A stretch of DNA of 64,000 nt from Pragia fontium DSM 5563 = ATCC 49100 (lineage in GTDB: Bacteria > Pseudomonadota > Gammaproteobacteria > Enterobacterales > Enterobacteriaceae). The first letter of the stretch is position 1, and every line of letters begins with the position of its first letter. A program made the position numbers and the translations under genes. The stretch covers positions 186,001-250,000 of the forward strand of contig NZ_FOLW01000001.1 of assembly GCF_900112475.1 (NCBI RefSeq). The letters run 5' to 3'. This document shows positions 3,100-22,623 of the stretch, piece by piece. The notes beneath the pieces were generated by a model. It had not been told where the DNA came from. It searched no databases and was given only the letters and a program-made list of their open reading frames with translations.

Positions 3100-3513
3100 A
3101 TGGTTTATACGGATAAAATGGAAAAGAAAGCCTCCGGTTATTATATCGGGAAAGATGTACTTTTAGATATTCATCATAACATTTTAATGAACTTAACCGC
3201 CTCTCATAACGAAAGGTTAATCAGGACAGTTAAATTAAAAGGCACCATGATGAGACTATTGGTTTACTTGCTGGAGAATGCCGATAACAAACTGATATCA
3301 AACAATGATATTTTAGTCAACGTTTGGGATAACTTTAATCTAAAGTCTTCTTCACCACGGTTATGGCAGGTAATTAATCTATTGAAACTTAAGCTAATTA
3401 CAACAGGAGTACCTTATGACTTCATTACCAAGTCTGGCAATAAAGGTTACACCATAAGGGCTGAGCTTATCATGCCAATATATTACAACGAAAAGATTCA
3501 ATGTAATACATAG
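3100..3513 (+). CDS. Small soluble winged-helix (OmpR/CadC-type) DNA-binding protein
   Basis: A 137-residue protein that is essentially only a winged-helix domain. LLVYLLENADNKLISNNDIL (residues 51-70) and the helix around SSSPRLWQVINLLKLKL, followed by FITKSGNKGYTI, correspond to the trans_reg_C fold. There is no receiver domain, no membrane helix and no periplasmic part, unlike the ToxR-type protein at 1591-2367. ATG 3100 and ATG 3118 are both possible starts and neither has a strong ribosome site. It lies 199 bp upstream of and co-directional with the autotransporter gene, so a role in controlling that gene is plausible but unproven. It could also be a truncated relative of the neighbouring regulator. 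Confidence 0.65.
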   Translation: MVYTDKMEKKASGYYIGKDVLLDIHHNILMNLTASHNERLIRTVKLKGTMMRLLVYLLENADNKLISNNDILVNVWDNFNLKSSSPRLWQVINLLKLKLITTGVPYDFITKSGNKGYTIRAELIMPIYYNEKIQCNT

Positions 3514-3712
3514 CCTCAAGCCAATATAAATAAATTTCAAATAAATAGGTTAATTCAAATTAATCTAAAACAGAATTATTTCATCATGATTTATCCAGAG
3601 GATTTAAAATTATGATTTAAAAATTCCAAACAAATAAAAAAGCTTATTTGTTACCAAACCAAACAGAAACAACTTTTCTATATTTTTTATTTTTATTTAA
3701 GGTAGTTAAAGT

Positions 3713-6640: not shown

Positions 6641-6664
6641 CCCCAACTTATCGCAATCAACCAA

Positions 6665-6697
6665 CAACGCTCAGCTTATGCTGAGCGTTGTTTTTTT
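6665..6697 (+). terminator. Rho-independent terminator of the autotransporter gene
   Basis: A perfect 11-bp stem CAACGCTCAGC / GCTGAGCGTTG with loop TTAT is followed by seven T residues. It isolates the autotransporter from the convergent fliJ gene. Confidence 0.95.
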
Positions 6698-6783
6698 ATA
6701 TGGTAAATAAATATATCTCTGGCAAAACCAGTAGAAAAGATCATCACTCGGCAACATCGAGTGACTTGGAGAATATGAAGCAG

Positions 6784-7209
6784 TTAACGTCCGCGCAGCC
6801 AACACTGTGCCGATAGTGCATCAGTCACTTTCTGCTGTTTACGATCTTCTTCCAGTGCAATATCCGATTTTTGCTCATCCAACACCAGCTCAACGGTTTT
6901 CTCACGGCAGGCTTCTTTAACCAAATTTTCCTGTAAAACTTTGGCCTGATTATCCGCCATGGCAAATTCCTGCTGCTGCCAGTTAATCAAATAACGCAGA
7001 TGATTTTTATAGTGGGATTGATTATTCATCAGTATCGGTGAATCGCCCGGCTTAACCTGGGTATCGTCATTCAGGGAAGTCAGGGCATCAATATTGTTCT
7101 GATAACGCTGACAAAGCTGCTTTTGTTGGGAAAGCTGGCCGGTCAATTCCGACACCGCTCGACTACGTAGTTGCTTTAGCAGTTGCAGCGTTTTGATGGT
7201 TTGATCCAT
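6784..7209 (-). CDS. lfiJ: Flagellar export protein FliJ, lateral system
   Basis: A 141-residue coiled-coil protein at the end of the fliEFGHIJ operon. FliJ links the FliI ATPase hexamer to FlhA and helps recycle export chaperones in the cytoplasm. Nearly the whole sequence is predicted helical with many Gln, Lys and Glu residues, and length fits the family (about 140-150). It starts 73 bp after the fliI stop. Similarity is low in this family, so position immediately behind fliI is the main evidence. Confidence 0.8.
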   Translation of the reverse strand: MDQTIKTLQLLKQLRSRAVSELTGQLSQQKQLCQRYQNNIDALTSLNDDTQVKPGDSPILMNNQSHYKNHLRYLINWQQQEFAMADNQAKVLQENLVKEACREKTVELVLDEQKSDIALEEDRKQQKVTDALSAQCWLRGR

Positions 7210-7282
7210 GATGCAAGGTTTCCTAATTTAATACCGCATAAATTTCAGACGCTGAGTAAAAAGAGCAAAACCAAAAACAGGA

Positions 7283-8602
7283 TTATCCCCGACTAATATT
7301 CCCCAACTGTTCCACCACACTCCCCAGCGGCGCAGCTTCATCAGTTTCCTGACACAGAAAACGACTGATCGCCGGATGCAGGTTTACTGCGCGATCCGCG
7401 TCAGGATCGGCACCAGGCACATAGCCTCCCAGTGGGATAAGTGGTTTAATGCCCATATAGGTGGCATACAGTTGCTTCATGGTCCGGGCTGATTTCTGAT
7501 GATCTTTATCGGTAATCTGGCTCATACAACGGCTAATCGACTGACCAATATCAATCGCTGGATAGTGCCCGGATTCAGCCAGTTTACGCGACAGAACAAT
7601 ATGTCCATCCAGTACCGCACGGGCGCAGTCAACAATCGGATCCTGCTGATCGTCACCCTCGGCCAATACCGTATAGATCGCGGTCATTGAACCGTTACTG
7701 GCACTGTTACCCGCACTCTCCACTAGCTTAGGAATAATACCAAATGCTGAAGGCGGATAACCTTTGGTGGCTGGAGGTTCCCCCAAGGAAAGGGCAATCT
7801 CCCGCTGAGCCATGGCATAGCGGGTCAGGGAATCTACCAACAACAAAACATCCTTACCTTTGTCACGAAAATAAGCAGCAATCGTGTGGCAAAGCTCAGT
7901 TGCTTTGATACGCATCAGCGGAGACTCATCCGCTGGGGCGGCAATAACAATGGATTTAGCCATGCCCTCAGCTTTCAGGGAGTGCTCAATAAATTCTCTG
8001 ACTTCTCGGCCACGCTCACCAATTAAGCCAACAATAACCACTTCAGCCTGAGTCTGCCGAGTAATCATACCCAGCAACACGCTTTTTCCGACGCCACTAC
8101 CCGCCATCAAGCCAACGCGCTGACCTTTACCAATGGTCAGCAAACCATTGATCGCTTTAACTCCCACGTCTAACGGTTCAATGACTGGTTGGCGGGTCAA
8201 CGGATGAATTTGCGTCGGTTGAGGAGACAGAGGGGTATCACCGCTGAGTTTACCTTTGTTATCCATCGGTTCCCCCAGTCCATTGACCACCCTACCCAAC
8301 CAGCTATCGCCAATCTGGATATCCTGCTCTTTTTCACAGGGAAAAACCCGTGCTCCGGCAATTAAACCCATCGGCGATTTAAACGGCATTAAAAAGGTAA
8401 CGTCTCGGTCAAAACCAACGACCTGCGCATCGATTAACGTATGATCTGCCCCTTCAATACGGCAACGCTGGCCAATAGCCAGCCGACATCCTACACATTC
8501 CAGCAGAATGCCGTTTACCCGTACCAGACGCCCGGCCACCCGAGCCAGATTAATACTCTCAATTGACTTGAGCGCCTTATCCAAAGAGGAGAAATCAGTC
8601 AT
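7283..8602 (-). CDS. lfiI: Flagellar export ATPase FliI, lateral system
   Basis: A 439-residue F1-beta-like ATPase that energises early steps of flagellar type III export at the cytoplasmic face of the basal body. The Walker A motif is MAGSGVGKSVLL, Walker B is DVLLLVDSLTRYA, and the catalytic-region GERGREVREF follows the P-loop as in all FliI/SctN ATPases. ATG 8602 is preferred over an upstream ATG at 8632 because it matches the family N-terminus (MTDFSSL). It overlaps the fliH stop by 8 bp, a sign of coupled translation. FliH binds FliI as a negative regulator and docking partner. Confidence 0.95.
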   Translation of the reverse strand: MTDFSSLDKALKSIESINLARVAGRLVRVNGILLECVGCRLAIGQRCRIEGADHTLIDAQVVGFDRDVTFLMPFKSPMGLIAGARVFPCEKEQDIQIGDSWLGRVVNGLGEPMDNKGKLSGDTPLSPQPTQIHPLTRQPVIEPLDVGVKAINGLLTIGKGQRVGLMAGSGVGKSVLLGMITRQTQAEVVIVGLIGERGREVREFIEHSLKAEGMAKSIVIAAPADESPLMRIKATELCHTIAAYFRDKGKDVLLLVDSLTRYAMAQREIALSLGEPPATKGYPPSAFGIIPKLVESAGNSASNGSMTAIYTVLAEGDDQQDPIVDCARAVLDGHIVLSRKLAESGHYPAIDIGQSISRCMSQITDKDHQKSARTMKQLYATYMGIKPLIPLGGYVPGADPDADRAVNLHPAISRFLCQETDEAAPLGSVVEQLGNISRG

Positions 8603-9359
8603 CGATCGTTCCCGTTCCCGTTTCGCGTTCAACTTCCGGCGGCAACAAATTCTCTTTTAACACATCAATGCATTGATCCAACCGATGCTGACAGCCCACA
8701 TCAATTTCCGTGGTATCGGTCGCTACTCGGCATTCGCCGTGCTCCATATTGGCATCTGGCGTGAGTCCCCATTCGCGGACTTTCTCCGGTTCGGCATCGT
8801 TCAAGCGGGAAAACTCTTCCGGGTTAACGTGTACCCGAATTTGTTTCGGTTGTTCTGGTAGCCCTGCCAGCGCTTCTTCAACCAACGCTAACAGCTGCGT
8901 TGGTTGTAACGCCAGTTCACAGCGAATAACCTGCCGAGTGACTTTATCCACCAACTGTAGCAGTTCTGTACGGCGCTGAACTTCATAGTTATCCAGAAAT
9001 GTCTGAAACTGCTGAACCATACCATCCAGAGGATCGGCTGCTCGCTCAAACATTGCCCGGCCTTCGAGAGAGCCTTCTTTGTTGCCTTTTTTCAGCCCTT
9101 CTTCAAAGCCAAGGCGTAATCCTTCCTGATAGCCTTCTTCTTTACCCTGATTAACACCCTGTTCAAATCCTTTATCCAATCCTTCCTGAAAACCGTTCAT
9201 CAGCTGTTGCTGATATTCAGCCGGTTCCAACGTTTGGGACTCATTAAGAGAAACTTCCCAACGCTTACGCAGAGGTGGAAACTGATGCACGCGGTACTTT
9301 CCCGCATTACGGCTATTTTTCTGGGTTAATAAATTGAGCTTTTCGCGACCGTCACTCAT
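8595..9359 (-). CDS. lfiH: Flagellar assembly protein FliH, lateral system
   Basis: A 254-residue stator-like protein that binds FliI and anchors it at the FliN/FlhA platform. The diagnostic feature is a long run of GxxxG-type repeats (residues about 75-120, units such as GLDKGFEQG and GLRLGFEEG), followed by a helical C-terminal FliI-binding domain with MVQQFQTFLDNYEVQRRTEL and the V/T-type E. coli FliH tail. The open frame extends to 9461, but the first 34 codons overlap fliG, and ATG 9359, 4 bp after the fliG stop, is the natural start (MSDGREKL). It overlaps fliI by 8 bp. Confidence 0.9.
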   Translation of the reverse strand: MSDGREKLNLLTQKNSRNAGKYRVHQFPPLRKRWEVSLNESQTLEPAEYQQQLMNGFQEGLDKGFEQGVNQGKEEGYQEGLRLGFEEGLKKGNKEGSLEGRAMFERAADPLDGMVQQFQTFLDNYEVQRRTELLQLVDKVTRQVIRCELALQPTQLLALVEEALAGLPEQPKQIRVHVNPEEFSRLNDAEPEKVREWGLTPDANMEHGECRVATDTTEIDVGCQHRLDQCIDVLKENLLPPEVERETGTGTIDD

Positions 9360-9363
9360 CACA

Positions 9364-10410
9364 TCACTCCATGGTCTGTTCCGAGAACAGCTGAATTTGA
9401 ATCTCACCATCCTCAGCCAATTCACGTACCGTCGCCATAATATCTTTACGCACCTGATCAATACGGCTGACCGGTACCGGACCCAAACGGGTGGTACTCA
9501 GCTGTAATTGCTGAACCTGACGCTTTGGCATTACGTTGTAGATGGATTGGCGCAGTACCGGCTCAGTGCCTTTCAATGCCACCGCCCAATCTTCCATTGG
9601 AATTTCATCTAACAACCGCTGAATGGTGGCTTCGGTCTGACGACTGAGAATAAAGAATTCATACATTTCATCCTTCAATTCATCCACTACCGCTTCATCA
9701 CGCTCACGTAGTTGATCCAATAGCTGCTGCTGATTATTCGGAATACGGTTAACGATATTCGCTGCCTGTTTAATCCCTTTGACTTTAGAACCATGTTCAG
9801 AAAGCACGGCAACGCCGCGTTCAATCAAACGATCCAGTTCGTCCACCACATCACGGTTAACATCATCCAGTTTGGCAATGCGATACAGGATCTCATCCTG
9901 ACGTTCCGCTTCAATGAACGACAGCACAGTCGCAGCCACATCCGGCGGTAAGAATGCCAGGAATACCGCCTGAAGCTGTAAATGTTCCTGATCGATAAGT
10001 GCCGCTAGTTGGCGAGTATCAACCCACTGTAAGCGTGCCATACGATGGCGAATTTCATCGCCATAAATGCCGTTAATCACGCTGGTAGCGATTTCGCCCC
10101 CCAGCGCTTTATCCAGAATACTTTGTAAATAGGAACGTGAGGCACCATTGATACCACTCTGTTCTCTGTAGTCCTGGAAAAAGCTATTCATCGCCTGTCT
10201 GGCCTGAGTGATCTTGATACCGTGCAGTCTGGCCATGGTTTCACTCAGTCGAATAACTTCCTCACGAGTCAGTTTTTTCATTACCGTAGCAGCAGCTTCT
10301 TCTCCCACGCTCAACAGCAGAATTGCCGCCTGTTCCAGACGATTACGCGAGTTGTTGGCGCTGCTGGCAGACTTACTGCTCTTGCTTGGCGTTTGTGTTG
10401 CTTCGGTCAT
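9364..10410 (-). CDS. lfiG: Flagellar motor switch protein FliG, lateral system
   Basis: A 348-residue rotor protein that couples stator force to the MS ring and takes part in direction switching. The N-terminal domain (about 25-105) binds FliF, the middle domain carries EHGSKVKGIKQAANIVNRIP, and the C-terminal domain (about 235-330) contains the charged torque helix region DDVNRDVVDELDRL / RQVQQLQ. The C-terminal half is well conserved. The first 20 residues (Thr/Ser/Ala-rich) are an extension relative to E. coli FliG. It overlaps the fliF end by 38 bp; a downstream start would shorten the extension but has no better ribosome site. Confidence 0.9.
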   Translation of the reverse strand: MTEATQTPSKSSKSASSANNSRNRLEQAAILLLSVGEEAAATVMKKLTREEVIRLSETMARLHGIKITQARQAMNSFFQDYREQSGINGASRSYLQSILDKALGGEIATSVINGIYGDEIRHRMARLQWVDTRQLAALIDQEHLQLQAVFLAFLPPDVAATVLSFIEAERQDEILYRIAKLDDVNRDVVDELDRLIERGVAVLSEHGSKVKGIKQAANIVNRIPNNQQQLLDQLRERDEAVVDELKDEMYEFFILSRQTEATIQRLLDEIPMEDWAVALKGTEPVLRQSIYNVMPKRQVQQLQLSTTRLGPVPVSRIDQVRKDIMATVRELAEDGEIQIQLFSEQTME

Positions 10411-12001
10411 TACTGTTTATCCACTGTTTAATTACTTCCGCTACGCGGTCCGTTTCGCTCTGCGCTAACAGCTGTAAGTATTCAACTTTTGTTTCCAGGC
10501 CAGAACTCAGCGGTGGGAGATTATCCTCACCCTGGAAGCTTGCGCGCGGTAGCTCAAGCCCTTTGCCGCTTTCTGACTCATCATCTTCTTCTTCGCCGTC
10601 TTCACCTGTTCGGCGAACGGCTAACGCCGGGACATTCTCTTCTTTTCTGGTTAACCGTTTAATTAACGGATTCATACCAAAGAACAGGAACAGCAGAGAT
10701 AGCAAACCAATGCCGCCCATCTCAGCCCAACGAATAATGCTTGGATCCTGCCACCACGGCAACGCCACATCATCGATTGGCGATGGCGCTGTAAATGCCA
10801 TCATACTCAGGGTTAACGAGTCACCGCGTTGACGATCGATACCTGCTGCATCGTCCACCAGCTTATTGAGCTTAGCAATCTGTTCATCATTCCAACCGGC
10901 AACGGCTGGCGCATCCTTATTCAGGATGATGGCGACCGTCATTTTCTCCAGCTTAAAGCCCGGATGATTGATGCTGCGAATATCACGATCGTAAGCATAT
11001 TTACGCTGCGACTGGCTACGTATTGAAGTAGAGGCAGTAGCATTATTATTCGCTTGATTAGCCGGTCGATTACTCAATGCGCCAGGAATTCCCTGTGCCG
11101 CATCATCAGACGCATTTTCCTGATTAACATTTTCATCGCTAACCCGAGGATCACCAATATAACGCTCTTGAGTTTCATTTATTTTACTCAAATCAAGCTG
11201 CGGCATAACGCTAACCCGATAATTGCCGGTGCCAACCAACGGCCCCAAAATATGGGCAACGTTTTTCTCAATTTCCGCCTGCAAACGGCCTGAAATATCG
11301 GAGCGGCTCTTCATACTGGCCAGCCCCGGATTATTGGACTGATAGCTTCCCGACAGCAGTTCGCCGTCCTGATCAATCACCTGTACATTACTCGGGTTCA
11401 AGCCCGGTACGCTGCCAGAAACTAAATGAATAATCGCACCAATCTGTTCTTCATTCAGATGCTGACCATATCGTAAACGCACGATAACCGAAGCACTATT
11501 CTCCGGTTTATTATTAATCACAAAGGAACTGGCTTCGCTAATGCCCAAATGCACTCTGGCCTGAGAAATGGAATCCAGCGCCATAATACTCTGAGCTAGC
11601 TCTCCCTCCAGACTCCGTTTATAGCGTACGTTCTGAATAAACTGGCTGCTGCCAAGCAGTGCCTCTTTATCCATCAGCTCATAGCCGGATGGCACCATCA
11701 CGGTGATTCCTTTAGCGGCTAATGCCATACGCGCTTTCGCCAAACTATTTTCAGGAACCAAAATCTGACCGCCGTTCGGATCGATGCGGTAACTAATCGA
11801 CTCGCCGCCCAAGACTTCTACGACCTGAGAAACTGGAATATTTTCCTGAGCGCCAAATAAAGCCACATAGCCTTGCGTGCTGCGCCATAGTGAGAAAACG
11901 ATAATTCCGGTAATCAGAGCCGCGGTGGCAATGCCAATCATCATGCCCTGATTCTTACTGAGCCTTAATGAGGTAATTTTCTGTTTAAATTGTTCTAGCA
12001 C
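10373..12001 (-). CDS. lfiF: Flagellar MS-ring protein FliF, lateral system
   Basis: A 542-residue inner-membrane ring protein, the base on which rotor and export gate assemble. Two membrane helices flank a large periplasmic part: one near residues 20-40 (TAALITGIIVFSLW) and one near 432-450 (GIGLLSLLFLFFG). Between them are the ring-building motifs, including YRIDPNGGQILVPE and the LVSGSVPGLNPSNVQVIDQDG secretin-like region. The acidic C-terminal tail (about 470-542) binds FliG. It lies 10 bp downstream of fliE and overlaps fliG. Confidence 0.95.
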   Translation of the reverse strand: MLEQFKQKITSLRLSKNQGMMIGIATAALITGIIVFSLWRSTQGYVALFGAQENIPVSQVVEVLGGESISYRIDPNGGQILVPENSLAKARMALAAKGITVMVPSGYELMDKEALLGSSQFIQNVRYKRSLEGELAQSIMALDSISQARVHLGISEASSFVINNKPENSASVIVRLRYGQHLNEEQIGAIIHLVSGSVPGLNPSNVQVIDQDGELLSGSYQSNNPGLASMKSRSDISGRLQAEIEKNVAHILGPLVGTGNYRVSVMPQLDLSKINETQERYIGDPRVSDENVNQENASDDAAQGIPGALSNRPANQANNNATASTSIRSQSQRKYAYDRDIRSINHPGFKLEKMTVAIILNKDAPAVAGWNDEQIAKLNKLVDDAAGIDRQRGDSLTLSMMAFTAPSPIDDVALPWWQDPSIIRWAEMGGIGLLSLLFLFFGMNPLIKRLTRKEENVPALAVRRTGEDGEEEDDESESGKGLELPRASFQGEDNLPPLSSGLETKVEYLQLLAQSETDRVAEVIKQWINSNDRSNTNAKQEQ

Positions 12002-12011
12002 TTTGATGGCC

Positions 12012-12365
12012 TTACAACGAGATATTCATCACTTGATCAAGTGCATGGGTTAACTTATTGCGAACTTCCATCATCGCGGAAAAAGCAATCCCGGCTTTCT
12101 GACTTTCAACCATGGTTTCCATCAGATTATCGCTGGTACCCATGTCAATGGCAGTCTGCATTTCACTGGCTTTATGCTGCATACCATCAACATGATTGAT
12201 GGCACCGTTAAACACCTGGGAAAACGCCACACCCTGAGTCTGACTGGCGCTACCGACATTCGCAGCCGGCAGAATTTCGGCACCGGACATGGCCGACATG
12301 CGCTGCATTTCCTGCATCATATTTAACTGGGAGCGTTGGATACCCACTGAATCTATTTTATCCAT
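12012..12365 (-). CDS. lfiE: Flagellar hook-basal body protein FliE, lateral system
   Basis: A 117-residue periplasmic adaptor that joins the MS ring and export gate to the proximal rod. The C-terminal half holds the family signature around KASEMQTAIDMGTSDNLMETM and the conserved ending NKLTHALDQVMNISL. ATG 12365 is preceded by AAAGGAAATAA, a good ribosome site. It is the first gene of the fliEFGHIJ operon, 73 bp after lafK, which is consistent with a separate promoter controlled by LafK. Confidence 0.95.
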   Translation of the reverse strand: MDKIDSVGIQRSQLNMMQEMQRMSAMSGAEILPAANVGSASQTQGVAFSQVFNGAINHVDGMQHKASEMQTAIDMGTSDNLMETMVESQKAGIAFSAMMEVRNKLTHALDQVMNISL

Positions 12366-12393
12366 TTCTGGTTATTTCCTTTGTGAAATATAA

Positions 12394-12409
12394 AGCAAAT
12401 CTTTGGCGC
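12394..12409 (-). promoter_or_regulatory. Possible sigma-54 promoter of the fliEFGHIJ operon
   Basis: On the minus strand GCGCCAAAGATTTGCT matches the sigma-54 pattern in the -12 element (TTTGC) and partly in the -24 element (GC instead of the GG dinucleotide at the correct distance). A sigma-54 activator gene (lafK) lies just upstream, so a site here is expected, but the imperfect -24 box makes this tentative. Confidence 0.25.
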
Positions 12410-12438
12410 TTTAATCAACGCCGGTAGTAAAACTGATT

Positions 12439-13461
12439 TTATGAAAAGCATTCCACATCGATGCCCTGTTCACGCATAGACGCCAAACGATAGCGCAGCG
12501 CTCGTGGCGTAATGCCCAGAAACTGTGCCGTCTTTGATTTGTTGCCCTTATGTCGTTTCAATAAATCAACAATGTATTGGTACTCTGCAATGCGACCGCG
12601 CACTTTAAGATGTCTGGCCGGTTCGTTCAGTTGGGTCACGATGACTTGAGGAGCTGCATCACTTTCTATTGGCATTTCCTCATTGATCTTCAATCCCAGA
12701 TCGGTGACCTGAATAACGCTGTCATTACTCATAATGATGCCGCGTTGGATCACATTCTCCAGCTCACGTACGTTTCCCGGCCATTCATAACGCTGTAGCT
12801 GGTGCTGTGCCTCTTCGGATAAATGAATACCACCCGCAGAGAACATGCCATATTTACGAATAAAACGATTAGCCAGAGGCAGGATATCTTCACTGCGTTC
12901 ACGTAACGGCGTGATATGGATGGGAACAACGGATAAGCGATAAAAGAGATCCTGCCGGAAACGACCTTCCTCGATTTCAGTTTCCAAACTCTTATTGGTT
13001 GAAGCAATTAAACGAATATTCAGCGGGATTCTTTTATGGCTACCTAAGCGTTCTACTTCTTGTTCCTGTAATACACGTAATAGCTTAGCCTGTAGAGAAA
13101 GTGGCATATCACCAATTTCATCCAGTAATAAGGTACCGCCATTCGCCTGTTCAAATTTACCGGCTACGCTATTCACTGCACCGGTAAATGCGCCTTTTTC
13201 ATAACCAAATAACATGGCCTCCAGCATACTTTCTGGAATAGCTGCACAGTTAACACCAATATAAGGTGCTGCATTATCTTTAAAAGCGTGGTGATGAATA
13301 TATTTAGCAATACACTCTTTACCCGTTCCTGTCTCACCAGTAATTAAAACCGGGACATTGTACTTTGCAACTTTTTTGGCAAGAGAAAACAGACTAATCG
13401 TTGAAGGTGCGCTCGCAACAAAAGTTGTCTCATTAACTGAGATAGCTGATTTTAGATGCAT
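12439..13461 (-). CDS. lafK: LafK, sigma-54-dependent activator of lateral flagellar genes
   Basis: A 340-residue bacterial enhancer-binding protein. The AAA+ domain starts almost at the N-terminus (about residues 20-245) with Walker A GETGTGKE, the sigma-54 contact loop GAFTGA and Walker B LLLDEIGD. A C-terminal Fis-type helix-turn-helix follows (about 300-335, NKSKTAQFLGITPRALRYRL). There is no receiver or GAF domain in front, so activity is probably set by abundance rather than phosphorylation. LafK in Vibrio parahaemolyticus and Aeromonas activates early lateral flagellar operons with RpoN. It is transcribed away from lfiM and towards fliE. Confidence 0.93.
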   Translation of the reverse strand: MHLKSAISVNETTFVASAPSTISLFSLAKKVAKYNVPVLITGETGTGKECIAKYIHHHAFKDNAAPYIGVNCAAIPESMLEAMLFGYEKGAFTGAVNSVAGKFEQANGGTLLLDEIGDMPLSLQAKLLRVLQEQEVERLGSHKRIPLNIRLIASTNKSLETEIEEGRFRQDLFYRLSVVPIHITPLRERSEDILPLANRFIRKYGMFSAGGIHLSEEAQHQLQRYEWPGNVRELENVIQRGIIMSNDSVIQVTDLGLKINEEMPIESDAAPQVIVTQLNEPARHLKVRGRIAEYQYIVDLLKRHKGNKSKTAQFLGITPRALRYRLASMREQGIDVECFS

Positions 13462-14037
13462 AATTTATTTCACCCGACTCAAATCAATTCCGTTTGTAAT
13501 CCAAATTACTTAGCTCTAGGCAACAACAATAAATAGAATATATATAAATATTTTCTATTTAACTAAAAGTAAATATTTTAAAAAAAACTTTTGATGCCAG
13601 TTAAGCCAATCAATATTCACATAATTGACAGAATTATAACCATAGTATTCAAATTTTATTCAATTAATTAAATATTAAATAATAAGTCATTGAATATTAT
13701 ATGATTAATATTTTTTTAATGGTTATTTCGCGAGGATTAATAATAGATTAATAAGTCCCATGCTATTGATCGGGGACTTAATAGAGAGTTTAATATCGGG
13801 CGTTACGCAGGAATGTAATAAAAGAGAAGGAATCTGCATTCACTACCGCCGTTAAATATTGATAACGACACAGTGTGGTGAAAACTTAAATATTCTTCTA
13901 TCTTTTATTTAAAAATATCTAAAAATAACGCTTAAAGTGCAGCAGACACCTTTCTCAGTCTGTTTTCGCTGTTTAAAAATTCAGGAAGAAATGAGAAGAA
14001 CGCAAACAATATATTGCAACCCTTATTGGATAAAACG
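13462..14037. other. AT-rich divergent promoter region between lafK and lfiM
   Basis: About 570 bp of very AT-rich DNA that must contain the promoters of the lafK and the lfiMNPQR-lfhBA operons. I found no clear sigma-54 or sigma-28 element. A short frame with a good ribosome site (AGGAAG, ATG at 13991) begins inside it and overlaps the lfiM start; see findings. Confidence 0.5.
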
Positions 14038-14916
14038 ATGTTACGCAAACGGCAAAAGAGTAGAATTTTTCACATTCATGACTTGCCTCAGATAATGAAG
14101 TTGGAAGTTAATAAATTAGGACGACCGTATCATAAGGTTCCTAAAATATTCACCAACAACTTCGATATATTAGATGCAAAAATTAGCACGTACTTTTTGA
14201 AAAAGTATCGTGTCAATGTCGCGCTTGATGATATTACTTTTCATATGGATTCAGAGCATAAATATGCTCAAATCTTTTCTACTCCGTTTGGTAATATCGC
14301 TTTTGATATTGATCGGATGTTATTACTTAACATTCTTAATGACTATTATGGATTAGGTAAAGACAATGTGCAGATCCACCCCGATCTGCAAACACCGATC
14401 ACTAAAACTGAAGAACGCCTTAAAAACAAGCTGGGGCTTGAGCTGTCATCATTGGTATTACACCCCGGTATTTTTGGTGATGAGCTGGAAATCAAAAACG
14501 ATTACTCCACCATTATCAATAAATGGTCCTACAAAATTACCTTTTCGCTGGAAGGGTACGATCAGGGGCAGTTCCATATTCTGTTGGATAATCAGCACGT
14601 CGATCGCTTGCTGGCTACCTTACGCCGCCCTAATGAACAAGATCGTAAAGAGAGCGAAAACCTCTCTAACGAGCAGCTTGAACGCATGATTAATTGTTTA
14701 CCGGTACGCCTTGTTGGTCGACTGTCATGCTCACAGCTCACCGTGGCGGAATTAATGACGCTAACGGCCGGGGATATTATCCCGGTTTCATTACCTAACC
14801 GTTTCCCTCTGTTAATCGGAAAAGAACAGCTATTTAACGCCGTGATAGCCGAAGATCGGGGCAAATTATACTTTTCTGAGTTTAACGACAATAGCAACGA
14901 GACAAAACATGATTGA
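14038..14916 (+). CDS. lfiM: Flagellar switch protein FliM, lateral type (LfiM)
   Basis: A 292-residue switch-complex protein forming the C-ring wall with FliG and FliN. The middle domain (about 40-215) is FliM-like but divergent, and the C-terminal 65 residues are a SpoA/FliN-type domain (LPVRLVGRLSCSQLTVAELM... to LYFSEF). The canonical N-terminal CheY-binding peptide (LSQxEIDALL in E. coli) is absent; the protein begins MLRKRQKSRIFH. The frame can be extended to a TTG at 14014, but ATG 14038 has a better, if weak, ribosome site (GGA). It overlaps lfiN by 8 bp. Confidence 0.85.
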   Translation: MLRKRQKSRIFHIHDLPQIMKLEVNKLGRPYHKVPKIFTNNFDILDAKISTYFLKKYRVNVALDDITFHMDSEHKYAQIFSTPFGNIAFDIDRMLLLNILNDYYGLGKDNVQIHPDLQTPITKTEERLKNKLGLELSSLVLHPGIFGDELEIKNDYSTIINKWSYKITFSLEGYDQGQFHILLDNQHVDRLLATLRRPNEQDRKESENLSNEQLERMINCLPVRLVGRLSCSQLTVAELMTLTAGDIIPVSLPNRFPLLIGKEQLFNAVIAEDRGKLYFSEFNDNSNETKHD

Positions 14917-15301
14917 TAACAACGACGATCACAACGATTTAGATTTTAACTTTAATCTGGACGATGACATGCTGTCCCCCGACAGTGACGCGCTGTTAGC
15001 CACCGCAGGACAATCGGCAGAAGAGCTGGCGCAGGCGGAGAAAAAACGCAACATGTCACTGTTCAGTCGTATTCCGGTCACCATGACGCTGGAAGTGGCT
15101 TCGGTCGAAATCTCATTGGCTGAACTGATGTCTATCACCGGTGACTCCGTTATCGAACTGGATAAACTCGCGGGAGAGCCGTTGGATATTAAAGTTAACG
15201 GTATTCAGTTTGGTAAAGCCGAAGTGGTGGTACTAAATGATAAATACGGTTTGCGCATCATTGAGTTTAACAATAAGAATTTAGGTGATCTGTCATTATG
15301 A
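14909..15301 (+). CDS. lfiN: Flagellar switch protein FliN, lateral type (LfiN)
   Basis: A 130-residue C-ring protein. The N-terminal 45 residues are acidic (many Asp) and poorly conserved; the SpoA domain follows (about 48-130) with IPVTMTLEVASVEISLAELM, the usual FliN core, and ends in LRIIEFNNKNLGDLSL. It overlaps lfiM by 8 bp and its stop shares ATGA with the start of lfiP, so the three are translated together. Confidence 0.92.
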   Translation: MIDNNDDHNDLDFNFNLDDDMLSPDSDALLATAGQSAEELAQAEKKRNMSLFSRIPVTMTLEVASVEISLAELMSITGDSVIELDKLAGEPLDIKVNGIQFGKAEVVVLNDKYGLRIIEFNNKNLGDLSL

Positions 15302-16107
15302 TAGCGCTCTCTTCTGGCACGCTCGCCGGTGTGAATAGGAAAAACACGCTATTATCAGGCCGGTTTCGTACCGGGCTGCTGTTACTGCTTTTACTGGCGG
15401 CTGCGCTATTTTCTGGCAAAATCTTTGCTGCCGGAGGCGATCTAACGCTATTTAGCAGTAACACCACGGCCAACGGTCAGGAATATAGCGTAAAGATTCA
15501 GGTTTTGATTTTAATGACCCTGCTAGGTCTGTTGCCTATCATGTTGTTAATGATGACCTGCTTTACCCGTTTTATTATTGTGCTGGCCATCTTACGTCAG
15601 GCGCTGGGATTACAACAAAGCCCGCCGAATAAAATTCTAACCGGTATTGCTCTGGCATTAACCCTGCTGATTATGCGTCCGGTTTGGGATCAGGTGTATA
15701 CCACTGCGGTTGAGCCATTTCAGAACGATCAAATCACCCTGAATCAAGCGCTGAGCAATGCCGAATCCCCACTGAAGACCTTTATGCTGGCTCAAACCAG
15801 TAAAAAAGCCTTAAGCCAAATCATGGATATTGCCAAAGTTACCGGCGAACCAAAGGATCAGAGCCTGTCGGTTATCATTCCCGCTTTTGTTCTCAGTGAG
15901 CTAAAAACCGCTTTCCAGATTGGGTTTATGATTTATATCCCATTTTTGGTTATCGACATGATTGTGGCCAGCGTTTTGATGGCCATGGGTATGATGATGC
16001 TATCACCGCTGATTGTCTCATTACCGTTTAAGCTAATGCTGTTTGTGCTCTGTGACGGCTGGGCATTAACGGTAGGCACTCTCACCGCCAGCATACAGGC
16101 GACTTAG
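15298..16107 (+). CDS. lfiP: Flagellar export gate protein FliP, lateral system
   Basis: A 269-residue inner-membrane protein, main component of the FliP5-FliQ4-FliR1 export pore. It has an N-terminal signal segment (about 24-45, Leu/Ala-rich, ending FAAGG), as FliP is one of the few gate proteins with a cleaved signal, then four membrane helices including the signature around MMTCFTRFIIVLAILRQALGLQ and a C-terminal pair (DMIVASVLMAMGMMMLSPL). ATG overlaps the lfiN stop by 4 bp. No separate fliO gene is present between lfiN and lfiP, as is usual for lateral loci. Confidence 0.95.
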   Translation: MIALSSGTLAGVNRKNTLLSGRFRTGLLLLLLLAAALFSGKIFAAGGDLTLFSSNTTANGQEYSVKIQVLILMTLLGLLPIMLLMMTCFTRFIIVLAILRQALGLQQSPPNKILTGIALALTLLIMRPVWDQVYTTAVEPFQNDQITLNQALSNAESPLKTFMLAQTSKKALSQIMDIAKVTGEPKDQSLSVIIPAFVLSELKTAFQIGFMIYIPFLVIDMIVASVLMAMGMMMLSPLIVSLPFKLMLFVLCDGWALTVGTLTASIQAT

Positions 16108-16109
16108 CT

Positions 16110-16382
16110 ATGATGACGATCGATCTGGCTTCCGATATCGTTTCTCGCGGTATTTATCTGATCTTAATTGTTTGTGCGGTGGCGATTATCCCCAGCCTGC
16201 TTATTGGCCTGTGCGTCAGTATTTTTCAGGCGGTCACGCAAATCAATGAGCAGACGCTCAGCTTTTTGCCGCGTCTGGTCATGACGTTGGTGGTATTGAT
16301 CATTGGTGGAAAATGGATGTTGCTGAAGCTCAGCGACTTCACCATTGAAATGTTTCATCAAGCCGCGCAGTATGTCGGGTAA
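16110..16382 (+). CDS. lfiQ: Flagellar export gate protein FliQ, lateral system
   Basis: A 90-residue protein with two transmembrane helices (about 12-38 and 50-75), the right size for FliQ. Conserved signature VSIFQAVTQINEQTLSFLPR lies between them. It starts 2 bp after lfiP and is followed 8 bp later by lfiR. Confidence 0.95.
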   Translation: MMTIDLASDIVSRGIYLILIVCAVAIIPSLLIGLCVSIFQAVTQINEQTLSFLPRLVMTLVVLIIGGKWMLLKLSDFTIEMFHQAAQYVG

Positions 16383-16390
16383 CACGAAAA

Positions 16391-17170
16391 ATGGGCATTG
16401 ATATTAATACGCTGATCACACCAATGTTAGCCATCTGGCTACCATTTGTGCGTATCTTGGCGTTTTTCCATTTCTGTCCAATTTTCGATCAACGATCGTT
16501 TCCGCTTAAGGCTAAAGTGGCCCTATCGCTGGTATTAGCGATTGTCATGACGCCAATGATAGCCAGTAACGTAGTGCTCAACGATTTACTCACCGTGCGC
16601 AGTTTAGTCTTAATTGGCGAACAGATTATCTGGGGCTTTATTTTCGGCACGCTGCTACAGTTTGTCTTCGTCGCTCTGCAAACCGCTGGCCATATTCTGT
16701 CTTTCAATATGGGTTTGGGTATGGCGATCATGAACGACCCAAACAGCGGCGCATCAACCACCGTTATCTCTCAGATTATTTTTATTTTTTCCGCCCTGCT
16801 GTTCCTCTCGATGGATGGGCACCTGCTATTTATCACGATTCTGTTTAAAGGCTTCACCTATTGGCCAATTGGCCAGGCAATCAACGACCTTTCACTACAC
16901 ACTTTAGTGTTGGGTCTGAGTTGGGTCATTTCCTCCGCCGTATTGCTGTCTCTGCCCACCACCCTGATTATGCTGGTGGTTCAGGGGGTATTTGGCCTGC
17001 TTAATCGCGTCTCACCAACCTTGAACCTGTTTTCGCTGGGTTTTCCCATCAGCATGTTATTTGGCCTGTTTTGCCTGATGTTGCTGGCCGGTAATATTCC
17101 GGACCACTATCTCAACCTAACCAATATGGTGCTCGACCAATTGGATAAGCTAAGGATTAATCATGGCTGA
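16391..17170 (+). CDS. lfiR: Flagellar export gate protein FliR, lateral system
   Basis: A 259-residue inner-membrane protein with about six membrane helices that completes the export pore. The motif FARPLK-like region is represented by FHFCPIFDQRSFPLKAKVAL near residue 27, and the second half has the MLVVQGVFGLLNRVSPTLN stretch typical of FliR. The stop overlaps the lfhB start by 8 bp. Confidence 0.95.
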   Translation: MGIDINTLITPMLAIWLPFVRILAFFHFCPIFDQRSFPLKAKVALSLVLAIVMTPMIASNVVLNDLLTVRSLVLIGEQIIWGFIFGTLLQFVFVALQTAGHILSFNMGLGMAIMNDPNSGASTTVISQIIFIFSALLFLSMDGHLLFITILFKGFTYWPIGQAINDLSLHTLVLGLSWVISSAVLLSLPTTLIMLVVQGVFGLLNRVSPTLNLFSLGFPISMLFGLFCLMLLAGNIPDHYLNLTNMVLDQLDKLRINHG

Positions 17171-18293
17171 GCAAAGCAGCGGCGAAAAGTCGGAAAAACC
17201 TACCGCAGGAAAACTGCGTAAGGCCAGAGAAAAAGGGGAAATCCCCCGCTCAAAAGACGTGACGATGGCGGCTGGCTTGGTGGCATCACTGTTCACCATC
17301 ACCAGCTTTTTCCCTTATTACGGTAAATTGATTGAAGAGTCATTTCATACCATTGCCAAAATGGCCGGTAAGCTGGATGACACCGAGGCCATGGCCCAGT
17401 TTTTGATGGCCAATGTGATGATCATTATTAAATTTATTGCCACATTGCTGCCTATCCCGGCGACCTGTTTTGTTGCTTCGCTGGTTCCCGGCGGCTGGCT
17501 CTTTACCCCCAACAAGCTGATTCCTGATTTTAAGAAACTCAGTCCAATCAGCGGCGTTAAGCGCCTGTTCTCCGCTAGTCATCTGACTGACGTGATTAAG
17601 ATGCTACTGAAATGTGGCATTTTGATTTATCTGCTGTACGTCATGGTACAAAGCTCGATTGGCGACATGATGCAGCTACAGGGACTGTTTCTGAATGATG
17701 CTATTAAGAAAGGATTTCAGGAATACTACAGCATCATGATCTACTTTGTGATTACTATCGCGCTGTTTGCCTTTATTGATATTCCATTGAGTAAGCATCT
17801 GTTTACCAAAAAAATGAAAATGACCAAGCAGGAAATCAAAGACGAATATAAAAACAGTGAAGGTAAACCTGAAGTTAAAAACCGCATTCGTCAGCTACAG
17901 CGCCAGTTTGCTATGGGACAAATCAATAAAACCGTGCCCAAAGCCGATGTCATTATTACTAACCCCACTCACTTCGCCGTGGCATTAAAATATGAACCGG
18001 AGAAAGCCAGTGCGCCCTACGTCGTTGCCAAAGGTATTGATGAGGTCGCTTTATATATTCGTGAAGTGGCCCGAACCAACCAAATTGAAATTGTTGAGTT
18101 ACCCCCGCTGGCCCGCGCGATTTATCACACCACCCGCGTGAATCAACAGGTTCCCGCACAGTTGTATCGCGCTATCGCCTACATATTGACTTACGTTTTG
18201 CAATTAAAGTCATGGCGAGCCGGCAAAGCTGATAAACCCAAACTGAACACTGGGATCTCCATTCCTAACGAGGTATTGAAGCAGTATGAGTAA
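17163..18293 (+). CDS. lfhB: Flagellar export switch protein FlhB, lateral system
   Basis: A 376-residue inner-membrane protein that sets export specificity. Four membrane helices lie in the first 210 residues. The cytoplasmic domain carries the self-cleavage motif NPTH (in IITNPTHFAVALKY, about residues 263-276), intact, so hook-to-filament switching should work. The N-terminus GEKSEKPTAGKLRKAREKG is standard for FlhB. It overlaps lfiR and lfhA by 8 bp each. Confidence 0.95.
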   Translation: MAEQSSGEKSEKPTAGKLRKAREKGEIPRSKDVTMAAGLVASLFTITSFFPYYGKLIEESFHTIAKMAGKLDDTEAMAQFLMANVMIIIKFIATLLPIPATCFVASLVPGGWLFTPNKLIPDFKKLSPISGVKRLFSASHLTDVIKMLLKCGILIYLLYVMVQSSIGDMMQLQGLFLNDAIKKGFQEYYSIMIYFVITIALFAFIDIPLSKHLFTKKMKMTKQEIKDEYKNSEGKPEVKNRIRQLQRQFAMGQINKTVPKADVIITNPTHFAVALKYEPEKASAPYVVAKGIDEVALYIREVARTNQIEIVELPPLARAIYHTTRVNQQVPAQLYRAIAYILTYVLQLKSWRAGKADKPKLNTGISIPNEVLKQYE

Positions 18294-20382
18294 GTTTTCA
18301 TTAAAAGGAATATTTGCCGCATTAAGGCATGGGCACATAGGGGTGCCAATTCTGCTATTGTGCGTACTGGCGATGGTTATTCTGCCGCTTCCGCCTATCG
18401 TGCTGGACGTCCTGTTCACCTTTAATATTGTGCTGGCCATTTTGGTTCTGCTGGTGAGCGTGAACAGTAAACGTCCGCTGGATTTTGCCATTTTCCCTAC
18501 CATTTTGCTGATTACCACGCTGATGCGCCTGACCCTGAACGTCGCATCAACCCGTGTGGTACTACTCAATGGTCATGAAGGGGTTGGTGCCGCGGGTAAG
18601 GTGATTGAAGCCTTCGGTCAGGTGGTGATCGGCGGCAACTTCGTGGTTGGTTTCGTGGTGTTCGTGATTCTGATGATCATCAACTTTGTGGTGGTGACCA
18701 AAGGTGCCGAGCGAATTTCTGAAGTTTCTGCACGCTTTACACTGGATGCCCTGCCCGGTAAACAGATGGCGATTGACGCAGACCTGAACGCAGGCTTGAT
18801 CAATCAAGAGCAGGCCAGAGCACGGCGTAAAGATGTGTCCAATGAGGCCGACTTCTACGGGGCAATGGACGGCGCCTCCAAATTTGTGCGCGGTGATGCC
18901 ATTGCCGGGATCATGATCCTGGTAATTAACGTCATCGGCGGTATCTTAATTGGTATTTTCAAACATAATCTGGATGCTGGCACCGCATTTGAACAGTATG
19001 TGCTGTTAACCATCGGTGATGGCTTGGTCGGCCAGATCCCATCATTGCTGCTATCAACGGCGGCAGCGATCATCGTTACTCGCGTAAGTGACAGCGGTGA
19101 TATGTCCGATGAGATTAAAACTCAACTGCTGGCATCACCATCGCTGTTATATACCGCTGCGGGAGTCATGTTTATTCTGGCGATTGTGCCGGGCATGCCA
19201 CATATGGCTTTCTTAACGTTTACTGGCGTATTGCTGTTTGTCGCCTGGAAACGCAGTAAAGCCATAGAAAAACCCGCCCCGGTTGAAGATCTTGTCGCGA
19301 TTACCAATGCCATGACCGAGGACACCGCGCAAACGGTCAGTTGGGATACCATTCCCATTGTTGAGCCGATTGGTCTGAATCTGGGTTATAAACTGGTGAC
19401 GCTGGTGGATCAATCCAAGGGTGATCCACTCACTCAGCGAATTCGCGGGGTACGTCAGGTCATTTCAGAAACCTGCGGAGTGTTATTACCCGAAGTAAGA
19501 ATTCGCGAAAATTTCCGGCTCAAACCCGCGCAATATGCCATTCATATCAATGGCGTAAAAGTGGCTACCGGTGAGGTTCATGCCGACAAGATGATGGCTA
19601 TTCCATCAACGGAAACTTACGGTGAAATCGATGGTGTACTGGATAACGATCCGGCTTACGGTATGCCCGTTACGTGGATTACGCCAGAACAAAAACCCAA
19701 AGCCCTGAACCTCGGTTATCAGGTGGTAGATTGCGCCAGCGTCGTGGCTACTCATGTTAATAAAGTGGCACGTCAATGCCTGCCGGACCTGTTTAACTAC
19801 GATGACATTACTCATTTGCATGAGCGTCTATCTTCCATCGCACCCAAATTGGCAGAAGACTTATCCGCTGCGCTAAATTTCAGTCAGCAGTTACGAATCT
19901 ATCGCCAGTTGCTGGTCGAACAGGTTTCCCTGAAAGATATTGTGACCATTAGTTCAACCCTGTTGGAGAGTTCTACCGTCACCAAAGATCCGATTCTGTT
20001 AGCATCGGATGTGCGTTATGCCTTACGTCGCGCTATCGTCTATGGACTGAATCAGGATCGCAAAAAACTGGCGACCTATACCATCGATAATGCACTGGAA
20101 AATATGTTATTGAGTTCGTTAAATCAGGCGCAGCAATCCGGTAAAGTCGCATTGGACAGTTTCCCGGTCGATCCGAATATTCTGACTCAATTACAAACCA
20201 ATATGCCGGTGATTAAAGAGCAAATGAAAGCCCAGGGATGTGAACCTATTTTACTGGTAACGCCACAGCTCAGGCCAATATTGGCACGCTATGCCCGGTT
20301 GTTTGCTCCCGGTTTACACGTTTTATCTTACAATGAAGTCCCGGATGAGAGTGAACTGAGTATTGTCGGCTCACTAGCCTGA
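18286..20382 (+). CDS. lfhA: Flagellar export gate protein FlhA, lateral system
   Basis: A 698-residue protein with about eight membrane helices in the first 330 residues and a large cytoplasmic C-terminal domain that receives chaperone-substrate complexes. The FHIPEP signature region is present (RPLDFAIFPTILLITTLMRL, then the loop GKQMAIDADLNAGLI). Length matches FlhA (about 690-700). It is the last gene of the lfiM-lfhA operon; the remaining lateral genes (hook, filament, motor) are not in the window, so they must lie beyond the left edge or elsewhere. Confidence 0.97.
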   Translation: MSKFSLKGIFAALRHGHIGVPILLLCVLAMVILPLPPIVLDVLFTFNIVLAILVLLVSVNSKRPLDFAIFPTILLITTLMRLTLNVASTRVVLLNGHEGVGAAGKVIEAFGQVVIGGNFVVGFVVFVILMIINFVVVTKGAERISEVSARFTLDALPGKQMAIDADLNAGLINQEQARARRKDVSNEADFYGAMDGASKFVRGDAIAGIMILVINVIGGILIGIFKHNLDAGTAFEQYVLLTIGDGLVGQIPSLLLSTAAAIIVTRVSDSGDMSDEIKTQLLASPSLLYTAAGVMFILAIVPGMPHMAFLTFTGVLLFVAWKRSKAIEKPAPVEDLVAITNAMTEDTAQTVSWDTIPIVEPIGLNLGYKLVTLVDQSKGDPLTQRIRGVRQVISETCGVLLPEVRIRENFRLKPAQYAIHINGVKVATGEVHADKMMAIPSTETYGEIDGVLDNDPAYGMPVTWITPEQKPKALNLGYQVVDCASVVATHVNKVARQCLPDLFNYDDITHLHERLSSIAPKLAEDLSAALNFSQQLRIYRQLLVEQVSLKDIVTISSTLLESSTVTKDPILLASDVRYALRRAIVYGLNQDRKKLATYTIDNALENMLLSSLNQAQQSGKVALDSFPVDPNILTQLQTNMPVIKEQMKAQGCEPILLVTPQLRPILARYARLFAPGLHVLSYNEVPDESELSIVGSLA

Positions 20383-20410
20383 TAGGAATTTAACGGTAAA
20401 AATTCATCAT

Positions 20411-20438
20411 AAAAAAACAGAGGGAATTCCCTCTGTTT
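20411..20438. terminator. Bidirectional terminator between lfhA and the microcin-like gene
   Basis: A perfect palindrome AAACAGAGGGAATTCCCTCTGTTT (20415-20438) lies between convergent genes. On the minus strand it is followed by a run of seven T residues, on the plus strand by three, so it is strongest for the minus-strand peptide genes. Confidence 0.85.
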
Positions 20439-20467
20439 GAATATCTGCATACGATTAATCAATACAA

Positions 20468-20794
20468 TTAGATAATTGATTGTCCGCTAGCCTTGCCTCT
20501 GCCGATATTTTCACGGTAGTGGGCTAAGGTGTTTTTCACTTCATCTTTACCAAACGCCAGACCGGCTAAACCACCGAAAATGCCACCCACGATTGGGCCA
20601 ACAAATAAACCACCTACGGCTTGAGCAAGAGTACCAAAGCCTAAACCGCCAGAAGCTGTTGCAGTACCACCGAGAGCAATACCGGTTGTTACACCATCAC
20701 CAACTCCCCAAAGAAAACCTTCGATAGAATCAGTAATACCAGATGTCCAGGCGCCGCTTACCATTTCTACTTCGTTGTTCTGTAATTCACGCAT
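20468..20794 (-). CDS. Microcin/class II bacteriocin-like peptide A with double-glycine leader
   Basis: A 108-residue peptide. The first 15 residues (MRELQNNEVEMVSGA) form a double-glycine-type leader like those of colicin V and related class II microcins, normally cut by a C39 peptidase-ABC exporter after Gly-Ala or Gly-Gly. The predicted mature part (about 93 residues) is rich in Gly, Ala and Thr with many GxxxG spacings and is strongly hydrophobic, suggesting membrane insertion, then a charged tail KDEVKNTLAHYRENI. A good ribosome site (AGGGATAA) precedes ATG 20794. It is a close paralogue of the next upstream gene. No exporter is visible in the window. It might alternatively be another leader-bearing secreted peptide without killing activity. 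Confidence 0.75.
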   Translation of the reverse strand: MRELQNNEVEMVSGAWTSGITDSIEGFLWGVGDGVTTGIALGGTATASGGLGFGTLAQAVGGLFVGPIVGGIFGGLAGLAFGKDEVKNTLAHYRENIGRGKASGQSII

Positions 20795-20896
20795 TGTTAT
20801 TATCCCTAATGAATAAACAAATCATCAAATCCGGATAAACACGTTTATCCGGATCCTGAAAACAAAATGCCTATTGGCAAATACACCAACAGTTAA

Positions 20897-21196
20897 TTAA
20901 CCGTGGATATTTTCACGATAGTGAGCCAGAGTGGCTTTCACTTCATCTTTACCAAAGATCGCACCAGCCAGCGTACCAAAAATACCGCCAACAAGAGGAC
21001 CAACTAACAGACCACCAACGGCTTGAGCAAGAGTACCAAAACCTAAACCGCCAGAAGAAGTTGCAGTTCCACCAATAGCGATACCGGTAGTCAGGCCGTC
21101 ACCTAAGCCCCAAGCAGCACCTTCGATAGTGTCATTAACGCTAGCAGTCCAACCACCGCTGATCATTTCAACTTCATTGTTTTGTAATTCACGCAT
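20897..21196 (-). CDS. Microcin/class II bacteriocin-like peptide B with double-glycine leader
   Basis: A 99-residue paralogue of the downstream peptide, with almost the same leader (MRELQNNEVEMISGG, here a true Gly-Gly) and the same core block TTGIA.GGTAT.SGGLGFGTLAQAVGGL and charged tail KDEVKATLAHYRENI. The open frame extends 12 codons upstream, but ATG 21196 is preceded by GAAGGGA and matches the start of the paralogue. The two genes are 102 bp apart on one strand and probably one transcript, ending at the terminator at 20411-20438. Two related peptides in tandem are typical of two-component bacteriocins, which is only an inference here. Confidence 0.75.
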   Translation of the reverse strand: MRELQNNEVEMISGGWTASVNDTIEGAAWGLGDGLTTGIAIGGTATSSGGLGFGTLAQAVGGLLVGPLVGGIFGTLAGAIFGKDEVKATLAHYRENIHG

Positions 21197-21433
21197 ATTA
21201 AAATCCCTTCTCAAATATATATAATTAGACATCTGTTATAGGACGACTTAATAACAAGACCGACCAATTTCTATTTTTACCATATAAAATTATTTTGTTT
21301 TATTAGAATTTATTTTATTTATTTAAATAACAAGAATAATTAAGCATTCGTTTTAGCTTCAGCATAAAGTCATTTATCAAAAAAACGAATTTACTTATCA
21401 AAACATAAGGGAATTAAACAAAAACCTTAAAAA

Positions 21434-21649
21434 TCAAAAGAAAGAAATTAACAACGATAAAACAATAATGCTAAAAATTCGCATCAAATCCATTTTACCA
21501 ACAATAAGGAAAAATAATAAACCCGAAAAACAAAAGGGTAAATAAAAATAAGTATTAAAATTTAAATGGTGAAAGAAATCATTATTTTCAATTACCATGG
21601 AAAAACAATAATTAAATAAAAATATAACCATAACAATGTATATACACAA
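21434..21649 (-). CDS. Possible small membrane protein upstream of the bacteriocin-like genes (immunity candidate)
   Basis: An open frame of 71 residues, nearly all hydrophobic, with about three membrane-spanning segments (residues 2-18, 34-52, 54-71). The first codon is TTG with AGGA 4 bp upstream; ATG at 21631 is an alternative. It lies on the same strand, about 240 bp upstream of the twin peptide genes, in AT-rich DNA. Small three-helix membrane proteins often give immunity to class II bacteriocins. The AT-rich setting means an accidental hydrophobic frame cannot be excluded. Confidence 0.35.
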   Translation of the reverse strand: MCIYIVMVIFLFNYCFSMVIENNDFFHHLNFNTYFYLPFCFSGLLFFLIVGKMDLMRIFSIIVLSLLISFF

Positions 21650-21906
21650 ATAATCCTATGCCAATAGTTTTTTATTTATCGCATTAAACAAAAACCTCAC
21701 CATATTACGATATAAATCCCTGGCCTAAACGGAGTATCATTTCTTCTCTTTACAACCCAACATCGCGCATTTCGCTATGGTCGACCATATAGATATCGTC
21801 AGCGATAAAAACAAACGATTGTCGAGCACGATGATACCATCACCTGACTTAACAACAGCATCTAACAAGGCAAGGTGAGCACCTTCAACCAATTTAAGGA
21901 GAATAA

Positions 21907-22623
21907 ATGACAGGTCCGTTACTAAATAGCGCCGCCGTCTTTATCGGTGGCGGGCTTGGCTTGCTATTAGCCCCGGTGATACCCCAACGTTTAAGAGATG
22001 GCCTACCTGCCGCTTTTGCCATGATATCCATCGCCATGGGGGTGGTGATGACGATTAAGGTGCAACAATTACCCGCCGTCGCTCTGGCGCTAATACTCGG
22101 TTTAGCTATTGGTGAACTGTGTTTTATGGAAAAAGGCGTTCAACGATTTGGCAGCTTTATTCAACGCGTGTTGGCTCGAATTCTGCCGGTGCGCAATCAT
22201 AATATGACGCCTGAACTTTATAGCCAAAACTTTACCGCTCTGATCGTGCTGTTTTGTGCCGGAGGAACCGGCGTGGTTGGTGCATTAACCGAAGGGATGA
22301 CCGGTAACTATCAGCTCTTGCTGGTCAAATCATTGCTGGATATCTTTACCGCCATGATTTTCGCTACCACGCTGGGTGCCGCTGTGATGTCAATCGCCTT
22401 CCCCCAGTTACTCATCCAAAGCCTGCTCTACTTCTCCGCCCGTCTTATCATGCCCTATATGAACGAGATCACGCTGGGAGACTTTTCAGCCTGCGGTGGC
22501 ATTATTATGATTGCCGTTGGCTTGCGCATCGCCCAAATTAAGACCTTCGCCGTGGTTAACTTTTTGCCAGCATTGCTGATTATTATTCCCATATCTCTGT
22601 ATTGGCATAGATTTATGGGATGA
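21907..22623 (+). CDS. yqgA: DUF554 family inner-membrane protein (YqgA-like)
   Basis: A 238-residue protein with about seven hydrophobic segments and glycine-rich starts such as GGGLGLLLAP, matching the DUF554/YqgA family in length (E. coli YqgA 235) and pattern (FCAGGTGVVGALTEGM, DIFTAMIFATTLGAAVM). The family's function is not established; a transport role has been suggested by its topology. AAGGAGAATAA gives a strong ribosome site for ATG 21907. It stands alone, convergent with the next gene. Confidence 0.85.
   Translation: MTGPLLNSAAVFIGGGLGLLLAPVIPQRLRDGLPAAFAMISIAMGVVMTIKVQQLPAVALALILGLAIGELCFMEKGVQRFGSFIQRVLARILPVRNHNMTPELYSQNFTALIVLFCAGGTGVVGALTEGMTGNYQLLLVKSLLDIFTAMIFATTLGAAVMSIAFPQLLIQSLLYFSARLIMPYMNEITLGDFSACGGIIMIAVGLRIAQIKTFAVVNFLPALLIIIPISLYWHRFMG

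Follow-up and report, generated by a model that had tools for sequence, protein, structure and literature searches.

The window, a 64,000-nucleotide stretch of the Pragia fontium DSM 5563 genome, carries two tandem genes for small peptides at 20468-21196, with gene A upstream of gene B on the minus strand (Table 1). Both products have a leader ending in GA or GG, then a glycine-rich core and a charged tail; open reading frames, leaders, GxxxG cores and tails are as the sequence-only reading had described them, including core lengths of 93 and 84 aa. The program-made list of open reading frames has an upstream ATG for the second frame at 21232; we re-placed the start of A at 21196 because of the AAGGGA motif ahead of it and its homology to B. 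The hairpin in the A-B spacer is possibly a partial terminator or a processing site, and the orthologous locus in G003, a genome of another genus, likewise has a hairpin similar to that found after B. No Rfam families were found within 20300-22000, and sigma-70 matches in the region showed no excess over shuffled sequence. The window also holds a flagellar cluster (1134-20382) running from FliI to FlhA with a LafK-type regulator and broken up by an autotransporter-like gene stretch (3713-6640); the only rod-type set found is on this contig too, immediately outside the window's left edge.

Both peptides matched the Pfam family DUF5862 (PF19180; E values of 1e-18 and 9e-20), with profile scores of 67.4 and 70.8 bits against a curated cut-off of 33.3 bits. 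Neither matched the Pfam MccV model, A matched Bacteriocin_IIc below its cut-off, and nothing in NCBIfam scored above any cut-off with A or B. The leaders comprise residues 1-15 and end in ISGG or VSGA, and presumably resemble that of microcin V (MccV). Cysteine is absent from both cores. Each core has two glycine zippers, and the proposed GxxxG spacing held up statistically: when each core was shuffled 20,000 times, the two runs arose jointly at a frequency of 0 for A and 5e-5 for B, such that the five- and six-glycine runs exceed chance (P about 5e-5 or less). Most relatives also have two long GxxxG runs. Within the zippers, the stretches G34-G42 and G70-G82 are unbroken, with D33 and P67 flanking them. 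Comparison of the family profile with solved structures gave no meaningful score, and an AlphaFold model built from the two window sequences was of low confidence (pLDDT 53, pTM 0.30) and was set aside.

Table 1. Features of the peptide locus in the window, and related loci elsewhere (locus handle given before the position)
Feature	Position	Strand	Basis or remark
Peptide gene A, 99 aa	20897..21196	-	DUF5862 double-glycine glycine-zipper precursor; ORF list, Pfam, shuffling
Double-glycine leader of A, MRELQNNEVEMISGG, predicted cleavage after GG	21152..21196	-	Sequence and leader pattern
Glycine zipper 1 of A, G26-G42 (five glycines; contains D33)	21071..21121	-	GxxxG scan
Glycine zipper 2 of A, G62-G82 (six glycines spaced GxxxG; contains P67)	20951..21013	-	
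Probable ribosome-binding site of A, AAGGGA	21204..21209	-	Sequence
Peptide gene B, 108 aa	20468..20794	-	Paralogue of A, 80% identical
Double-glycine leader of B, MRELQNNEVEMVSGA, predicted cleavage after GA	20750..20794	-	Sequence and leader pattern
Glycine zipper 1 of B, G26-G42	20669..20719	-	GxxxG scan
Glycine zipper 2 of B, G62-G82	20549..20611	-	GxxxG scan
Probable ribosome-binding site of B, AGGGA	20803..20807	-	Sequence
A-B spacer hairpin, 13 pairs, T run not clear	20827..20856	-	Sequence
Terminator-like hairpin after B, AAACAGAGGGAATTCCCTCTGTTT, then T run	20415..20438	-	Sequence
Doubtful 71-aa hydrophobic ORF, TTG start, in upstream AT-rich stretch	21434..21649	-	Sole adjacent immunity-gene candidate
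Further double-glycine peptides in the same genome	L081 8205-8741; L082 6789-7016; L083 7357-7545 and 7812-8030		Leader pattern
groEL-side cassette: fimbriae, tandem glycine-zipper peptides, HlyD, C39 exporter, YjeJ-family (PF15922)	L086 6001-11173; L058 4578-10836; L035 4646-10706		

No exporter gene lies near A and B in the window; the Cdz-like criteria look for CdzAB-type secretion genes within about 10 kb. The host genome (3.95 Mb, 29 contigs) does encode three clear C39 ABC exporters, all on other contigs and each next to an adaptor of the HlyD type. This agrees with the sequence-only reading, which had suggested that the exporter might be encoded elsewhere and had named the lack of any C39 exporter in the genome as a refuting result; with exporters found, it was not refuted. 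Sequence inspection identified the catalytic Cys, His and Asp motifs in all three. The exporter on contig C10 is accompanied by an HlyD-type adaptor and a TolC-like protein, while those on C6 and C11 have one adaptor alongside each. Identity between the C6 exporter and the one adjoining peptide arrays in the genomes G002 and G360 is 66%, and the C10-type set is also present in G003 (exporter 89%, adaptor 87% identity). The C10 set stands head to head with the gene for a large, repetitive adhesin-like protein and the latter's own type I secretion genes (L011 4256-19166), an arrangement kept in G003 (L084). The third C39 exporter and its adaptor (L013 887-4531) are closely preceded by a 47-aa cysteine-rich peptide that has a GG motif (MKEIELHHGKKAVGGCLIWK...) and may be this exporter's own substrate.

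The genome-wide check of the leader motif was also positive, with 7 matches at four places against 0 in the reversed control; five of these matches, on contigs C7, C11 and C17, mark further small double-glycine peptides. Together with the C39 results this gives the genome a set of scattered double-glycine peptides and a few exporters, and comparable scattering has been described in Serratia marcescens (PMC13101503). Judging from leaders and exporters, A and B are very probably exported by a remote C39 exporter.

Relatives were found by searching sampled genomes of the order, in which the family profile matched 9 of 394 (four strongly, the host genome included); two further member genomes were added from close relatives. 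The window peptides as query returned no relative in the public genome collection, plasmids or E. coli, and an orphan-array peptide from G360 returned none in plasmids. In G002 and G360 the peptide arrays directly adjoin CvaA/CvaB-like genes, and in G285 a member lies about 9 kb from the exporter of an exporter pair, in a stretch that has a TolC-like protein and a fimbrial operon as well. Klebsiella shares a groEL-side cassette with two other genomes. Genes in a Klebsiella pneumoniae record run as they do in G002 and G360: fimbriae, two peptides, HlyD, C39 exporter, YjeJ, DUF4156, groEL. By its position only, YjeJ is a candidate partner of the exporter-linked peptides. E. coli K-12 keeps yjeJ beside groEL, so there the gene may be a relic of an export cassette; the accessible parts of the literature yielded nothing relevant on YjeJ with groEL. 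The G003 locus is orthologous to that of the window, with a DUF554 gene 88% identical and a lafK-like regulator 76% identical; it has only one peptide, which shares about 50% identity with A and B, and lacks most flagellar genes between the flanks. G266 has a tandem pair with SAAAG leaders (L031 9541-10435) and no C39 exporter detected by search, possibly reflecting decay following exporter loss. A full C39 exporter is present in 5 of the 6 genomes with clear members, compared with 120 of 394 across the sampled order, a co-occurrence that is only suggestive given a small and related sample.

Among known systems, A and B match most of the criteria by which Cdz-like proteins were collected (PMC5380434), as judged from their sequences and with reservations over D33/P67 and the distant exporter. 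Lengths of 99 and 108 aa fall within the 60-151 residues of that collection, and ISGG and VSGA conform to its G[G/A/S] leader ending; one or two glycine zippers, a short charged or polar tail (KDEVKATLAHYRENIHG in A, a longer counterpart in B) and predicted C39 type I export are common to both, as are an elusive immunity gene, neighbouring adhesion genes in many cases and, in some genomes, copies in tandem. CdzAB-type genes lie within about 10 kb of the peptides in G002, G360 and the Klebsiella relatives, whereas the exporter for A and B would be remote. Cdz-like zippers are flanked, not interrupted, by proline or a charged residue, but the A and B runs contain both. CdzC and CdzD of Caulobacter crescentus kill by contact and are both needed (PMC5380434), whereas A and B are closely similar paralogues. 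With class II microcins (PMC9746304), A and B share the leader type and, by prediction, the export route: leaders and genomic C39 exporters with catalytic residues are both present, recognition of one by the other being predicted. The likeness to class IIa microcins (the MccV kind, with CvaA/CvaB/TolC) lies in the MR-L-E-V-S-G[GA] leader type, the glycine-rich core of 80-90 residues and the CvaA/CvaB-like exporters in the genome; however, apart from the doubtful 71-aa frame A and B have no adjacent immunity-gene candidate, their exporter is unclustered, they match DUF5862 instead of the MccV model and they are cysteine-free. The Klebsiella groEL-locus cassette carries related tandem glycine-zipper peptides of the same profile family as the G360 and G002 arrays, with an exporter that in its G002/G360 form resembles that on C6, but there the exporter is adjacent and the peptides belong to another subfamily, with an FVPW-type tail in place of YR.

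A search for immunity genes was unrewarding. A simple hydropathy scan over twelve loci found no small membrane-protein gene consistently beside the peptides, and the exporter-linked arrays likewise lacked a conserved one. The 71-aa hydrophobic frame upstream of A matches nothing in Pfam and lacks a counterpart in G003, and we give it little weight as an immunity gene. The lack of a conserved immunity gene is the main gap in a bacteriocin reading.

We suggest that A and B are two variants of one double-glycine, glycine-zipper DUF5862 peptide. A C39 peptidase-containing ABC exporter on contig C6 or C10 would cut the leader after GG or GA, and the 84-93-residue core would exit by way of the HlyD-type adaptor and a TolC-type channel. 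Analogy with CdzC/CdzD of Caulobacter and the class II microcins suggests that the two glycine-zipper helices would next, most probably, come together in a neighbouring bacterium's membrane, with damage as the result. The sequence-based part of this proposal comprises the leader, the zippers, the exporters with catalytic residues, the exporter-linked relatives and purifying selection, and from it we infer cleavage, secretion and killing by A and B. Counting against it are the lack of an exporter at the locus and of a conserved immunity gene, the G266 pair with no detected C39 exporter, D33 and P67 inside the glycine runs, and the low-confidence AlphaFold model. Taken as a whole, the evidence tips the balance slightly in favour of exported, membrane-acting antibacterial glycine-zipper peptides.

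The sequence-only reading had proposed a two-component microcin or bacteriocin; the microcin-like kind is borne out by leaders, zippers and the family's place beside C39 exporters elsewhere, but the two-component part is not. It had also taken near-identity as a sign of recent duplication, yet identity between A and B is 80% at the protein level and 78% at the DNA level, and a dS of about 0.95 (bootstrap 0.58-1.75) indicates that the duplication is not recent. Their dN/dS of about 0.15 indicates that both copies are kept by purifying selection. Either one compared with the G003 orthologue gives about 0.36-0.54, while neighbouring genes give 0.03-0.05, a rough figure as their dS is saturated; by this comparison the copies are held alike within the genome and change fast between genera, and gene conversion possibly keeps them alike. 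Such a pattern does not match a conserved alpha/beta pair. An obligate two-peptide bacteriocin, alpha plus beta, would account for adjacent genes, double-glycine leaders and GxxxG cores, features shared with the class IIb two-peptide bacteriocins of Gram-positive bacteria, as well as for the tandem pairs at other loci, and CdzC and CdzD do work as two proteins (PMC5380434). We nevertheless consider it improbable: no complementary pair of distinct peptides is maintained across species; same-locus tandem copies mostly cluster in the tree (G285a, G285b, G266, G360a, G360b) and not by position across genomes, the two window copies falling at an unresolved fork; copies per locus number 1, 2, 3 or 5, with one at the orthologous G003 locus; and sequences so alike under such constraint are not diverging into complementary halves. 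The cores are also much longer than those of class IIb. A and B look like paralogues with a shared or overlapping function, in dose or variety, and not like required halves of a toxin.

The main rival to an antibacterial role is a non-toxic one, in which the exported peptides would serve as an adhesive or as part of a matrix, assembling between cells or on the producer's exterior, perhaps together with fimbriae, and would require no immunity gene. This would explain why no conserved immunity gene was found and why tandem sets reach five similar copies; chaperone-usher fimbrial operons adjoin the groEL-side members (L035, L058, L086) as well as those of L059, a locus unrelated to it, and CdzC makes stable aggregates on the producer surface (PMC5380434). 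Set against this, the glycine-zipper double-glycine proteins whose function has been tested do kill (PMC5380434), fimbrial islands are common insertion places and the link may thus be incidental, no fimbrial operon lies at the window locus, and fast change between genera suits an arms race too. We regard the non-toxic role as possible, if unlikely; its extension to DUF5862 as a family, whose tandem sets would be exported without immunity genes and build or modify surface contacts alongside fimbriae instead of killing, seems to us rather unlikely. That A and B are a decaying remnant, left over after exporter and function were lost, would agree with the exporter-less locus and the SAAAG-leader pair of G266, but is very doubtful given two intact frames under purifying selection and a genome that still encodes seven peptides with the leader and three C39 exporters in which the catalytic motifs are present.

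New here, on the evidence of sequence comparison, are a probable link of DUF5862 to C39 export, an arrangement that is both remote and repeated, and evidence against the two-component reading. The incompletely covered literature contained no mention of the DUF5862 family by name, and Klebsiella members may already be among published Cdz-like or microcin predictions. Hitherto a family of unknown function, DUF5862 gains a testable candidate role, leader-tagged export by a C39 type I system. The lack of a conserved immunity gene poses the question of whether these are toxins or other zipper peptides carried by the C39 export route. Our results support the existence of orphan microcin-like peptides served by a remote exporter, peptides that exporter-adjacent surveys will miss.
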